A DNA stretch of 64,000 bases from Acidimicrobiales bacterium (GTDB lineage: Bacteria > Actinomycetota > Acidimicrobiia > Acidimicrobiales > Acidimicrobilacustridaceae), in contig JALOLR010000007.1 of NCBI GenBank assembly GCA_025455885.1, positions 62,001 through 126,000 on the forward strand, given 5' to 3'. Position 1 is the stretch's first letter. Each line of letters opens with the position of its first letter. Below, piece after piece: positions 60,679 through 64,000 of the stretch. The translations under genes were made by a program, and so were the position numbers. A model generated the notes under the pieces. It worked only from the letters and a program-made list of their open reading frames with translations, was not told the origin of the DNA and ran no database searches.

Positions 60679-61353
60679 GTGCACGTCGTGGTGGTCGGTT
60701 GCGGACGGGTGGGCTCGGGCCTGGCGATCAACCTCGACGACCAGGGCCACTCCGTGGCCGTCGTGGACCGTCGGTCCAACGCCTTCCGGCGGCTGCCCGC
60801 CGCCTTCGGCGGCCGGACGGTGACCGGGGTGGGGTTCGACCGGGCGTGCCTGCGCGACGCCGGGATCGAGCAGGCCTCGGCGCTGGCCGCCGTGACCAGC
60901 GGCGACAACTCGAACATCCTGATCGCCCGCACCGGCCGGGAGTACTTCGGGGTGGAGCGGGTGGTGGCGCGCATCTACGACCAGCGTCGTGCGGCCATCT
61001 ACGAGCGCCTCGGCATCTCCACGGTGGCCACGGTCGGCTGGGCCATCGACCGGGTGCTGCGTCGCATCGAGGTCGGGACGCAGGAGGTCGAGTGGATCGA
61101 CCCCAGCGCCCGCGTGTGCCTGGTCGAACGCCTCGTCCCCGACTCGTGGGCCGGCCATGCGTTCTCCGCACTCGAGAGCGACGGCGGGGTCCGGGTGGTG
61201 GCGGTCACCCGGCTGGGCGTCGCCCAGGTCGTGAGCTCGGCGCTGCTCGCGCAGGCCGGGGACGTGGTGTGGCTGGCGGTCGACGGCGACCGGCTCGAGG
61301 CGATCGACGCGCTGCTCGCCGGCGGCCCCGGCGACCGTGAGGGGGGGCACTGA
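60679..61353 (+). CDS. TrkA-family potassium uptake regulatory protein (first copy)
   Basis: Cytosolic RCK protein of 224 aa that gates a Trk/Ktr potassium channel. The N-terminal Rossmann domain shows VVVGCGRVGSGLA and the acidic end of strand 2 in VAVVDRRS, the NAD/ATP-binding pattern; the C-terminal part (RVCLVERLVPDSWAGH...GDVVWLAVDGD) is the TrkA-C domain. GTG 60679 follows GTGGAGGTGG. The second copy begins one base inside its stop (TGATG), the same paired layout as ceoB-ceoC in mycobacteria. Confidence 0.9.
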   Translation: MHVVVVGCGRVGSGLAINLDDQGHSVAVVDRRSNAFRRLPAAFGGRTVTGVGFDRACLRDAGIEQASALAAVTSGDNSNILIARTGREYFGVERVVARIYDQRRAAIYERLGISTVATVGWAIDRVLRRIEVGTQEVEWIDPSARVCLVERLVPDSWAGHAFSALESDGGVRVVAVTRLGVAQVVSSALLAQAGDVVWLAVDGDRLEAIDALLAGGPGDREGGH

Positions 61354-62021
61354 TGCGGGTCGTGATCGTCGGTGGCGGCAACGTCGGCACCTACATCGGT
61401 GGTGCGCTGCGCGACGGCGGGCACGAGGTGCTCATCGTGGAGGTCGACCCCGATCGGGTGGCCCGCGCCCAGGCCAACGGCGAGCCCCCCGGTGCGGCGT
61501 GGCTCCTCGCCGACGGGTGCGAGGTCTCCGAGCTGGCGGCCGCCGACCCGGCGCGGGCCGACGTCGTGGTCGCCGTCACGGGCGACGACGAGGACAACCT
61601 CGTCGTGTCCTTGCTGGCCAAGCAGGAGTTCGGTGTGCCCCGGGTGGTCGCCCGGGTCAACAACCCGGACAACCACTGGATGTTCAACGAGTCCTGGGGG
61701 GTCGACGTGTCCGTCTCGACCCCGCACCTGCTGACCGCGCTCGTCGAGGAGGCGGTGTCGGTCGGCACGTTCGTGCGCCTCCTGTCGTTCGACCGCGACC
61801 GGGCCCAGCTCGCCGAGGTGACGCTCGCACCGGGCTCGCCCGCCGAGGGCCGGGAGATCCAGGCGCTCGGGCTGCCCCGGGCGTCGAGCATCGTCGCTGT
61901 CCTGCGCACCGACCACCTCGTGGTGCCCCGTGGCGACACCGTGCTCGGCGCCGGCGACGAGGTGCTCGTCCTCGTCACCCGCGATTCCGAGGACGAGGTC
62001 CGTCGGATCCTCGTGGGCTGA
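61353..62021 (+). CDS. TrkA-family potassium uptake regulatory protein (second copy)
   Basis: Second RCK protein, 222 aa, probably forming a mixed ring with the first. The nucleotide-binding motif is IVGGGNVGTYIG, with EVD ending strand 2; VVARVNNPDNHWMFNESWGVDVSVSTPHLL is the typical end of the TrkA-N domain, followed by a TrkA-C domain (LVVPRGDTVLGAGDEVLVLV). ATG 61353 overlaps the previous stop by one base. The channel subunit (TrkH-like) is not in this window. A riboswitch-controlled P-type ATPase follows. Confidence 0.9.
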   Translation: MRVVIVGGGNVGTYIGGALRDGGHEVLIVEVDPDRVARAQANGEPPGAAWLLADGCEVSELAAADPARADVVVAVTGDDEDNLVVSLLAKQEFGVPRVVARVNNPDNHWMFNESWGVDVSVSTPHLLTALVEEAVSVGTFVRLLSFDRDRAQLAEVTLAPGSPAEGREIQALGLPRASSIVAVLRTDHLVVPRGDTVLGAGDEVLVLVTRDSEDEVRRILVG

Positions 62022-62115
62022 GCGCCTCCCGAGGACCGGCCGACCGGCAACCGGTCACCGCCGATCGCGGTGCATCGGTGCGAAGAGCCGCGGCTTCCGC
62101 CATACTGCTCGCAGT

Positions 62116-62265
62116 GAGGGGAGTACCCCATCACAGCGGTGTCGTCATCACGGCGGGTCGGCTTCGGCTGGACCACCCGGTGCCGCTGGCCCTTGCGGGC
62201 GGGGGAGACCTCCGGTCCTCTGGCTCCCCTCGGGGGCCTGTTGTCGTCGTCCGACCTGACCGGAG
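62116..62265 (+). promoter_or_regulatory. yybP-ykoY (Mn2+) riboswitch with translational expression platform
   Basis: The aptamer spans about 62116-62212. P1 is GAGG (62116-62119) with CCTC (62209-62212); the conserved loop GGAGTA follows at 62120-62125, facing GAGA (62205-62208). P2 is CCCC/GGGG, a GCCC-TTGC-GGGC hairpin lies at 62189-62200, and the long arm is closed by CAGCGG (62134-62139) with CCGCTG (62183-62188); it carries the conserved GTCGTCATCACGG and a UUCG-capped tip. CTCCGGTC (62210-62217), overlapping P1, is exactly complementary to GACCGGAG (62258-62265), the ribosome-binding site of the ATPase gene. Mn2+ binding would free that site, making an ON switch. Confidence 0.88.
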
Positions 62266-62271
62266 TCCGCT

Positions 62272-64000
62272 GTGGTTGCCTCATCGTCCGTCACCCCTGA
62301 GCCCTCGTCGCCCGTGGCCCCTGTGCCGTCCGCCGAGCCGTGGCACACCTATCCCGCCGCAGAGGTCGCCGAGCGACTCGGCGTCAGCGTCGATGCGGGG
62401 CTCTCCGACGCCGAGGTCGCCGCCCGCGTCGAGCGCCACGGCCTGAACCGGCTGGCCGAGCCCCCCAAGCGGCCCAAGTGGAAGCTCTTCCTCGACCAGT
62501 TCCGCAGTGGGATCGTGCTCATCTTGGTGGCGGCCGCCGTGCTGGCCGGGGCGATCGGCGACCTCAAGGACTCGATCGTCATCGCCGTGGTGCTGTTGAT
62601 CAACGCCGTCCTCGGCTACGTGCAGGAGGCGAAGGCGTCCTCGGCTCTCGAGGCGCTCAAGCAGATGCTCGTCTCGAAGGTGCGGGTCCGCCGCAACGGC
62701 GGCATCGCCGAGGTCGTCACCGACGACCTGGTCCCGGGCGACGTCGTGCTGCTCGAGGCCGGGGACCGCGTGCCCGCCGACGGGCGGGTCGTGCTGGCCG
62801 CCAACCTCCTGGTCGACGAGTCGTCGCTGACGGGCGAGTCGGTGCCGGTGGAGAAGGACAGCGAGGCCACCGAGCGCGCCGACGGGCCGCTCGGCGACCG
62901 CCACGGCGCCCTGTACATGAACACCACCGTCGCCCGCGGCCGCGCCGAGATGGTGGTCACCGAGACCGGGATGCGCACCGAGATGGGCAAGGTGGCCGAC
63001 CTGCTCGGCAACGCCGACCCGGGCCAGACCCCGCTGCAGCGCCAGCTCGACGGCCTCAGCAAGAAGCTGGCCGTCATCGCGGTGGTCGCCGTGGGGCTGG
63101 TCTTCGCGCTCCAGCTCGTCCAGGGCGAGGACCTCGCCGAGGCGGCGATCGGGGCCGTGGCCCTGGCGGTGGCGGCCATCCCCGAGGGCCTGCCGGCGGT
63201 CGTCACGGTGACGCTCGCGGTCGGCATCTCCCAGATGGCCAAGCGCAACGCCATCGTCAAGCGGCTCCACTCCGTCGAGACCCTCGGGTCCACCACGACG
63301 ATCTGTTCGGACAAGACCGGGACGCTGACGCTCAACCAGATGACGGCCCGCGAGGTCGTCCGGGGCGGGCACGTGTGGAAGGTCGGCGGCGAGGGCTACG
63401 CCATCACCGGCGAGTTCGTCGCCGAGGACGGGACCGCCACGGCCGCCGACGCCCTCGTCGACACCCTCACGCCGGCCGCGCTGTGCGCCGACGCCGTGGC
63501 CCGCACCGGCGCCGACGGCCGCCCCGACGTGGTGGGCGACCCCACCGAGGTCGCGCTCGTCGTCGTCGCCGCCAAGGCCGGCATCGACGTCGAGGGGCTA
63601 CGGACCGCCCGCCCCCGCCTCGGCGAGGTGCCGTTCGACTCCACCACCAAGTTCATGGCCACCTTCCACCGGGTCCACGACGACGGTTCCGACGACGTGG
63701 TCGTGTACGTCAAGGGTGCGCCCGACGTGCTGCTGGGCCGGTCGACGTCGTTCATCGACGGTCAGGGGCAGGTGCGTCCCCTCGACGACATGGCCCGGGC
63801 CGGACGCCAGGCCGACAACGACCGCCTGGCGTCGGAGGGGATGCGGGTGCTGGCCCTGTCCTCGCGGACGCTGCCCGCCGCGGAGGTCCTCGACGCCGAC
63901 GGTGCGGTCGTCGAGCCCGAGCGCTGGATCGACGACCTCACCCTCCACGCCCTGGTGGGCATCGTCGACCCCCCGCGGGCCGAGGCCCGCGACGCCATCG
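62272..64000 (+). CDS. P-type cation ATPase (PII, Ca2+/Mn2+-type), 3' truncated
   Basis: The first 576 codons of a type II P-type ATPase; the gene runs off the window. An N-terminal cation-ATPase domain (WHTYPAAEVAERLGVSVDAGLSDAEVAARVERHG) precedes two membrane helices, the actuator TGES (187-190), the ion-site helix PEGLP (304-308) and the phosphorylation motif DKTGT (Asp347). The nucleotide-binding domain continues to the window end. GTG 62272 has GGAG 6 bases upstream, inside the riboswitch platform. The Mn2+ riboswitch argues for manganese export, as for other P-type ATPases under this RNA, though calcium transport is also possible. Confidence 0.92.
   Translation, partial: MVASSSVTPEPSSPVAPVPSAEPWHTYPAAEVAERLGVSVDAGLSDAEVAARVERHGLNRLAEPPKRPKWKLFLDQFRSGIVLILVAAAVLAGAIGDLKDSIVIAVVLLINAVLGYVQEAKASSALEALKQMLVSKVRVRRNGGIAEVVTDDLVPGDVVLLEAGDRVPADGRVVLAANLLVDESSLTGESVPVEKDSEATERADGPLGDRHGALYMNTTVARGRAEMVVTETGMRTEMGKVADLLGNADPGQTPLQRQLDGLSKKLAVIAVVAVGLVFALQLVQGEDLAEAAIGAVALAVAAIPEGLPAVVTVTLAVGISQMAKRNAIVKRLHSVETLGSTTTICSDKTGTLTLNQMTAREVVRGGHVWKVGGEGYAITGEFVAEDGTATAADALVDTLTPAALCADAVARTGADGRPDVVGDPTEVALVVVAAKAGIDVEGLRTARPRLGEVPFDSTTKFMATFHRVHDDGSDDVVVYVKGAPDVLLGRSTSFIDGQGQVRPLDDMARAGRQADNDRLASEGMRVLALSSRTLPAAEVLDADGAVVEPERWIDDLTLHALVGIVDPPRAEARDAI

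Follow-up and report, generated by a model that had tools for sequence, protein, structure and literature searches.

The window analysed here is a stretch of 64,000 nucleotides from an Acidimicrobiales bacterium (contig JALOLR010000007.1 of assembly GCA_025455885.1), whose genome comprises 3.29 Mb in 33 contigs. Close to the end of the window, a gene of the TrkA type (61353-62021) is followed by a leader and then by a gene encoding a P-type ATPase, which begins with a GTG codon and continues past the last base of the window. The leader would be about 160 bases long, assuming a start near 62112. A sequence-only reading of this DNA had proposed that the leader is a manganese riboswitch of the yybP-ykoY family, one strand of which doubles as an anti-Shine-Dalgarno sequence. 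The blocks on which that proposal was built all lie exactly where it had placed them: GGAGTA, GTCGTCATCACGG (62141-62153), GAGACC (62205-62210), CTCCGGTC, GACCGGAG and the GTG codon at 62272, as well as the segments GAGGGGAG (62116-62123) and CTCCCCTC (62224-62231). The features of the leader are collected in Table 1. For the candidate -10 box given there, a simple promoter scan found no promoter.

Table 1. Features of the leader and of the gene that follows it (positions in the window)
Feature	Position	Strand	Basis or remark
Possible -10 promoter box CATACT, just 5' of the leader (putative)	62101-62106	+	26 of 30 aligned loci have ATACT no more than about 22 nt ahead of the element
P1.1, 5' strand GAGG	62116-62119	+	RNAalifold on A1
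Loop L1, 5' half GGAGTA	62120-62125	+	Found in 139 of 143 loci
P1.2, 5' strand CCCC	62126-62129	+	First pair in 100 A2 rows: U-A 53, C-G 18, G-C 10, unpaired 19
Four-base linker at the site of helix P2 in four-way-junction members	62130-62133	+	A1 and A2 alignments
P3, 5' strand	62134-62141	+	Two-sided changes in A1 and A2
Loop L3, 5' half TCGTCATCACG	62142-62152	+	A62147 is the presumed Mn2+-contacting adenosine, role by homology
Variable outer hairpin P3.2	62153-62176	+	A1 alignment, RNAalifold
Loop L3, 3' half CCGG	62177-62180	+	A1 and A2 alignments
P3, 3' strand	62181-62188	+	RNAalifold on A1, covariation in A2
Hairpin P4	62189-62200	+	RNAalifold on A1, covariation in A2
P1.2, 3' strand GGGG	62201-62204	+	RNAalifold on A1, covariation in A2
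Loop L1, 3' half GAGA	62205-62208	+	GAGAC in 132 of 143 loci; AAGAC in 10 of the remaining 11
P1.1, 3' strand CCTC, shared switch strand	62209-62212	+	RNAalifold, swap test, covariation
Anti-Shine-Dalgarno CTCCGGTC	62210-62217	+	Exact complement of 62258-62265; conserved
GACCGGAG with Shine-Dalgarno GGAG, 6 nt ahead of the start codon	62258-62265	+	Complement of CTCCGGTC; conserved
P-type ATPase, P2A kind, GTG start, 946 aa	62272-64000, continues past the window	+	Pfam PF00690, PF00122, PF13246 (part within the window)

Of 61 genomes, the window's own included, 33 contain a match to the 182 bases of DNA that precede the ATPase gene. Thirty oriented loci, that of the window among them, make up alignment A1, from which a covariance model, R1, was built; it contains no E. 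coli sequence. With R1 the element was detected in 51 of 298 genomes sampled from the order and in 64 of 396 from the phylum, two samples that overlap and that both include the window's own genome. A second alignment, A2, consists of 100 of 113 other loci, which lie outside the training set of R1 but were found with it.

The loci of A1 align with long invariant runs. RNAalifold, with no structure supplied, recovers P1.1, P1.2, P3, P3.2 and P4 from this alignment, and 16 of the 32 pairs show changes on both sides. Because A2 was found with R1 and its alignment was fitted to R1, which favours the R1 structure, the fair comparison is with slid and shuffled controls, in the latter of which the relatedness of the loci persists: standard pairs occupy 95.4% of 2717 cells in A2, a share that drops to 34-54% once one side is slid, and 29 of the 32 pairs have changed on both sides as against a shuffled mean of 21.3, none of 500 shuffles reaching 29. 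P1.2, P3 and P4 covary in both alignments. The outer pair of P1.1 is AU in 51 of the 100 A2 rows and GC in 43, with another standard pair in three rows and no pairing in three.

Helix P2 is missing from the element. A linker of four nucleotides (columns 19-22) stands in its place in all 30 rows of A1, three of which carry one extra base at column 24, just inside P3, and the linker is no longer than 8 nt in 97 of the 100 rows of A2. Locus L111 has a 16-base insert at this site that is able to fold as a hairpin; by eye, longer inserts are also seen in L115, L116 and L118, which are low scorers in A2, and in L157, which lies outside it. The column of A62147 is invariant in A1 and reads A in all 99 rows of A2 that have a letter there. 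It matches the invariable adenosine that, in reported crystal structures, touches Mn2+ through its N7, namely A41 within UCAAUUC in the L. lactis RNA and A48 within ACAUACU in that from X. oryzae (PMC6754395).

The element is very probably a compact yybP-ykoY riboswitch. The class put forward by the sequence-only reading is supported by three findings: a structure that covaries across the phylum, a conserved discriminator adenosine, and recognisable homology with a named member, R1 matching the leader of alx from E. coli at 33.4 bits (E 2.1e-7). Loop L1 (GGAGUA / GAGA) lies between P1.1 and P1.2, as it does in the family; L3 has the adenosine A62147, the N7 contact itself being taken from the report on the crystallised members (PMC6754395); P1, P3 and P4 meet in a junction in which P2 is variable, being seen in the crystallised members and absent here; and the element stands ahead of genes for metal export or Mn2+ homeostasis. 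The alx leader resembles that of the window in loop L1 (GGGGAGTA ... GTGAGACC), in the start of L3 (TCGTCAT.ACG) and in having only a short linker where P2 would be, with the P1 strands in register. It differs in having other outer hairpins and in the gene that follows, alx, whose product is annotated as a Mn2+ exporter and is not a P-type ATPase. As alx also has the short linker, P2 would not be required for membership of the family. The yoaB gene of L. lactis encodes a P-type ATPase. Its riboswitch has the same core and the discriminator adenosine A41 and is reported to be a Mn2+ ON switch (PMC9190785, PMC6754395); unlike the element in the window, it is described as having four helices, P1-P4, and as working through an intrinsic terminator (PMC9190785). 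A survey of 2013 describes the family as widespread over bacterial groups (PMC3766115). For the actinobacterial form, older predictions in Corynebacterium (PMC3890552) and a general mention for actinobacteria are on record. The RNA class and similar switches are already known; what is new is this member, the blind spot of Rfam described below, the phylum-wide evidence for a shared strand and a set of candidate members of a manganese regulon.

The strand that follows GAGA takes part in two pairings. CTCCGGTC complements GACCGGAG exactly over eight bases, and GGAG within the latter lies six bases ahead of the GTG codon. The sequence-only reading had put the 3' strand of P1 inside CTCCGGTC. The eight-base complement is exact and the overlap is real, but the 3' strand of P1.1 proves to be CCTC, which lies partly outside, and therefore only three bases (62210-62212) are common to it and to the anti-Shine-Dalgarno sequence. 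Of the 30 aligned loci, 29 have an exact downstream complement of at least 7 nt to this strand, L030 having one of 6. L029 carries CTCCGATCG/CGATCGGAG, a compensated change in the helix between the anti-Shine-Dalgarno and Shine-Dalgarno sequences.

Both pairings are conserved beyond these loci. The strand, the Shine-Dalgarno region and the start could be defined in 130 of 143 loci, ten having been dropped because they showed no reading frame by the criterion applied and three because of a deviant L1. In these 130 loci the helix formed with the locus's own Shine-Dalgarno region has a mean score of 18.5, compared with 14.9 when partners are swapped, the highest of 200 permutations giving 15.8. 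The corresponding values for the 91 loci left once near-identical rows had been taken out are 17.3 and 14.0, and none of 500 permutations reaches the former. The choice of start codons relied on the complement of the 16S RNA and left the riboswitch strand out of account; some of the choices (e.g. L005, L006, L026 and L029) look internal, which lowers the score of the own helix. The fourth shared base and its P1.1 partner are C-G in 73 loci, T-A in 52 and another combination in five (n=130). In a test that is independent of pairing, the form of the Shine-Dalgarno sequence tracks this base when all loci are taken (Fisher P 0.0007), but does not do so in the less redundant set (P 0.11). The P1.1 side of the shared strand therefore rests on plain covariation and its Shine-Dalgarno side mainly on the swap tests, and with both in hand the dual use of the strand, as originally suggested, is supported. 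Since two competing pairings are supported over the whole phylum, the switch is unusually well defined from sequence alone.

The reading that we favour, with a probability of about 0.87, is that of a compact, P2-less yybP-ykoY riboswitch in which Mn2+ would free the Shine-Dalgarno sequence by way of the strand shared between P1.1 and the anti-Shine-Dalgarno sequence, allowing a P2A ATPase exporter to be made. At low Mn2+, CTCCGGTC would pair with GACCGGAG, the Shine-Dalgarno sequence would be hidden and translation would be off. Mn2+, together with Mg2+, would dock loops L1 and L3. In the docked aptamer P1.1 would reclaim CCTC, three of the eight pairs of the Shine-Dalgarno helix would be lost, the ribosome binding site would open and the exporter would be produced. 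A translational ON switch of this kind is consistent with the absence of any terminator-like site and with the mechanism of the E. coli mntP leader, a reported Mn2+ translational switch in which the ribosome binding site is inaccessible without Mn2+ (PMC11647493). The mntP leader is unlike that of the window in having a longer insert at the place of P2, and it is not matched by R1.

Rho is reported to act at mntP too, terminating transcription in the riboswitch region (PMC11647493), and the element in the window might likewise act mainly on transcription, either through Rho or at a pause, with masking of the Shine-Dalgarno sequence as a secondary effect. We consider this rather unlikely, for the conserved competitor of P1.1 is the Shine-Dalgarno sequence itself. 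An intrinsic terminator as the means of control was rejected, since no terminator-like site was found in 61950-62400, a result that counts against transcriptional control while being uninformative on Rho.

Calculated folds were also considered for the translational switch. The minimum-energy fold of the leader, computed without constraints, holds the eight-pair Shine-Dalgarno helix with pair probabilities of 0.6 to 0.8, and the OFF fold is favoured by about 19 kcal/mol over the forced aptamer in a calculation that includes neither metal nor tertiary contacts. When the aptamer is forced on the window RNA, bases 62262-62265 are still paired elsewhere with probabilities of 0.97, 0.67, 0.40 and 0.85; because GGAG thus stays largely paired elsewhere, an open site does not follow from the computed energies by themselves. 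Forcing the aptamer raises the accessibility of the Shine-Dalgarno sequence in 29 of 29 loci, L030, in which no helix was called, being omitted from the 30 (mean 0.02 to 0.33; window 0.16 to 0.27), but as forcing P1.1 disturbs the Shine-Dalgarno helix by construction, this serves as a consistency check only. The whole leader is no more stable than its shuffles (z -0.57), and its thermodynamic folding, uninformative on its own, was set aside as evidence. The segment GTGAGGGGAGTACCCCATCAC (62114-62134) can fold as a hairpin of its own that encloses both 5' strands of P1. This hairpin is present in the minimum-energy fold and may, within the yybP-ykoY family, be part of the OFF state.

The full ATPase, of 946 residues, scores 734.8 bits against TIGR01522 (PMR1-type), the best NCBIfam model among those listed. 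This does not reach the cut-off of the model (798.3), and the protein is therefore called a P2A-type ATPase that is nearest to the PMR1 (SPCA) kind but not a member of it. It has the motifs PEGLP and NLIADGPPALSLG, which we take to lie in M4 and M6, respectively. Its best solved relative is chain 8iwp, 'Calcium-transporting ATPase type 2C member 1' and presumably SPCA1, at 612.7 bits; pumps of the lmo0841 type score about 563. The M6 segment reads DGPPALSLG in the ATPase versus DGPPAQSLG in chain 8iwp. The Q of this segment is needed for Mn2+ transport in yeast Pmr1, so that the L found in its place is a point against Mn2+. On the other side, the window's own genome, which is scored as 100% complete, gives no match to TerC, GDT1 or MntP in a search confined to these three exporter families. 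For this reason the ATPase is plausible as a Mn2+ exporter. The finding points to a calcium-type ATPase as a manganese exporter where TerC, GDT1 and MntP are not found, and this is directly testable. The distribution of TerC is patchy (26 of 61 genomes), and its absence was given up as a rule for element-bearing relatives, as several genomes with the element have TerC too.

The genes that lie behind the element were clustered, and the clusters were named through Pfam on representatives. Among 130 such genes, 56 belong to the TerC cluster, 50 to the P-type ATPase cluster, two to GDT1 and one to CDF; because 29 of the 50 ATPase genes belong to loci that were selected for their DNA similarity to the window's leader and 21 to loci from model searches, the ATPase share is not an unbiased estimate. 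This range of targets bears on whether the element, paired as it is with a calcium-type ATPase, could be a yybP-ykoY relative with a different divalent ion as its ligand or with a broader divalent response, for instance to Ca2+ or Mg2+. Such a reading would fit the closeness of the ATPase to Ca2+ pumps of the PMR1/SPCA kind, the L that it has in M6 at the place of the Q of chain 8iwp, and two related loci whose downstream genes share a cluster, the member tested having matched the sodium/calcium exchanger family. It is made improbable by the conservation of the discriminator adenosine, by an L3 that starts with the same TCGTCAT as that of the alx leader, and by TerC being the largest target cluster, with GDT1 and CDF among the others.

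The sequence-only reading had also offered a second switch pairing, between GAGGGGAG and CTCCCCTC. These segments are exact eight-base complements in the window, but the pairing occurs in only two of 139 loci, the window among them, as would be expected by chance; it was dismissed, and that it belongs to the switch is very hard to maintain.

The lack of a match to the Rfam family RF00080 had been named beforehand as a refutation of the element, and the search was indeed negative. The Rfam 15 model has no match at the gathering score in the window or in the window's own genome, and none in the region 61950-62350 even at E<=10. Yet the same model leaves the alx leader of E. coli K-12 unreported at E<=0.1 and gives the mntP leader 41.6 bits, under the cut-off of 45, so the negative result carries little weight. 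The RF00080 scan, which covered the window, its own genome, 61 genomes and 30 chosen loci, was accordingly dropped as a decisive test after it had failed on alx. Five of the 61 genomes (own included) match at E<=1 and none above the cut-off, and the strongest match, in L031 (29.1 bits), is not at the ATPase leader of that genome. When applied to 30 actinobacterial loci that bear the element, the model reports two at E<=0.1, neither of them above the cut-off. Its printed consensus is without the GAGACC return strand. The model is not broken outright, since it matches in five of 14 control genomes, including those of E. coli and B. subtilis.

C. glutamicum is not among the control genomes that match, though it does match TerC as a control. 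With an older Rfam model, three RF00080 leaders, among them that of cg2157 (terC), were predicted in this species with scores between 43.7 and 49.9 bits; they are actinobacterial like the window's element, a likeness drawn from their listing as Rfam predictions (PMC3890552, Table 2). They differ from it in resting on the older model, and only the terC leader is reported there as observed by RNA sequencing (PMC3890552). Since alx and the majority of the actinobacterial members examined escape the current Rfam model, manganese regulation in Actinomycetota is probably under-annotated. That the likeness is fortuitous in GC-rich DNA and no functional riboswitch exists, as the missing RF00080 match and a leader no more stable than its shuffles might suggest, is scarcely credible in view of the covariation in A2, which outdoes its slid and shuffled controls, and of the match between R1 and alx.

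A wider generalisation for the Actinomycetota can be advanced tentatively, at somewhat less than an even chance. A compact, P2-less manganese aptamer of the alx type would prevail in this phylum, acting on translation through the strand shared by P1.1 and the anti-Shine-Dalgarno sequence. Largely overlooked by current Rfam annotation, it would govern a manganese regulon that extends beyond known exporters, in which SPCA-like ATPases stand in for missing TerC and MntP and to which an AMP-binding enzyme and a zinc-ribbon protein of the TFIIB type would also belong.

Several further genes were noted at or near copies of the element. Just past the end of the window, L161:4520-4888 encodes a protein of 122 residues whose GTG start overlaps the stop codon of the ATPase gene. 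By eye, it resembles two proteins whose genes come immediately after the manganese element, one in L104 and one in L054, and which both match Pfam Zn_ribbon_TFIIB; it is a candidate partner in manganese homeostasis. L031:1507-1599, the site of the strongest RF00080 match mentioned above, is another compact manganese element; it scores 31.0 bits with RF00080 and 49.4 bits with R1 and stands ahead of a cation-efflux (CDF) family gene. In L030, L158 and L159 the genes behind the element fall into one cluster, and the member of it that was tested is an AMP-binding enzyme (PF00501), which one would not expect under the control of a manganese switch. In L101, L110, L114, L129 and L141 it precedes a five-gene cluster, the tested member of which is an M50 peptidase. 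Finally, the elements of L056, L061 and L085 lie ahead of genes for a baeRF family protein, a PGPGW membrane protein and a DksA/TraR zinc-finger protein, respectively.
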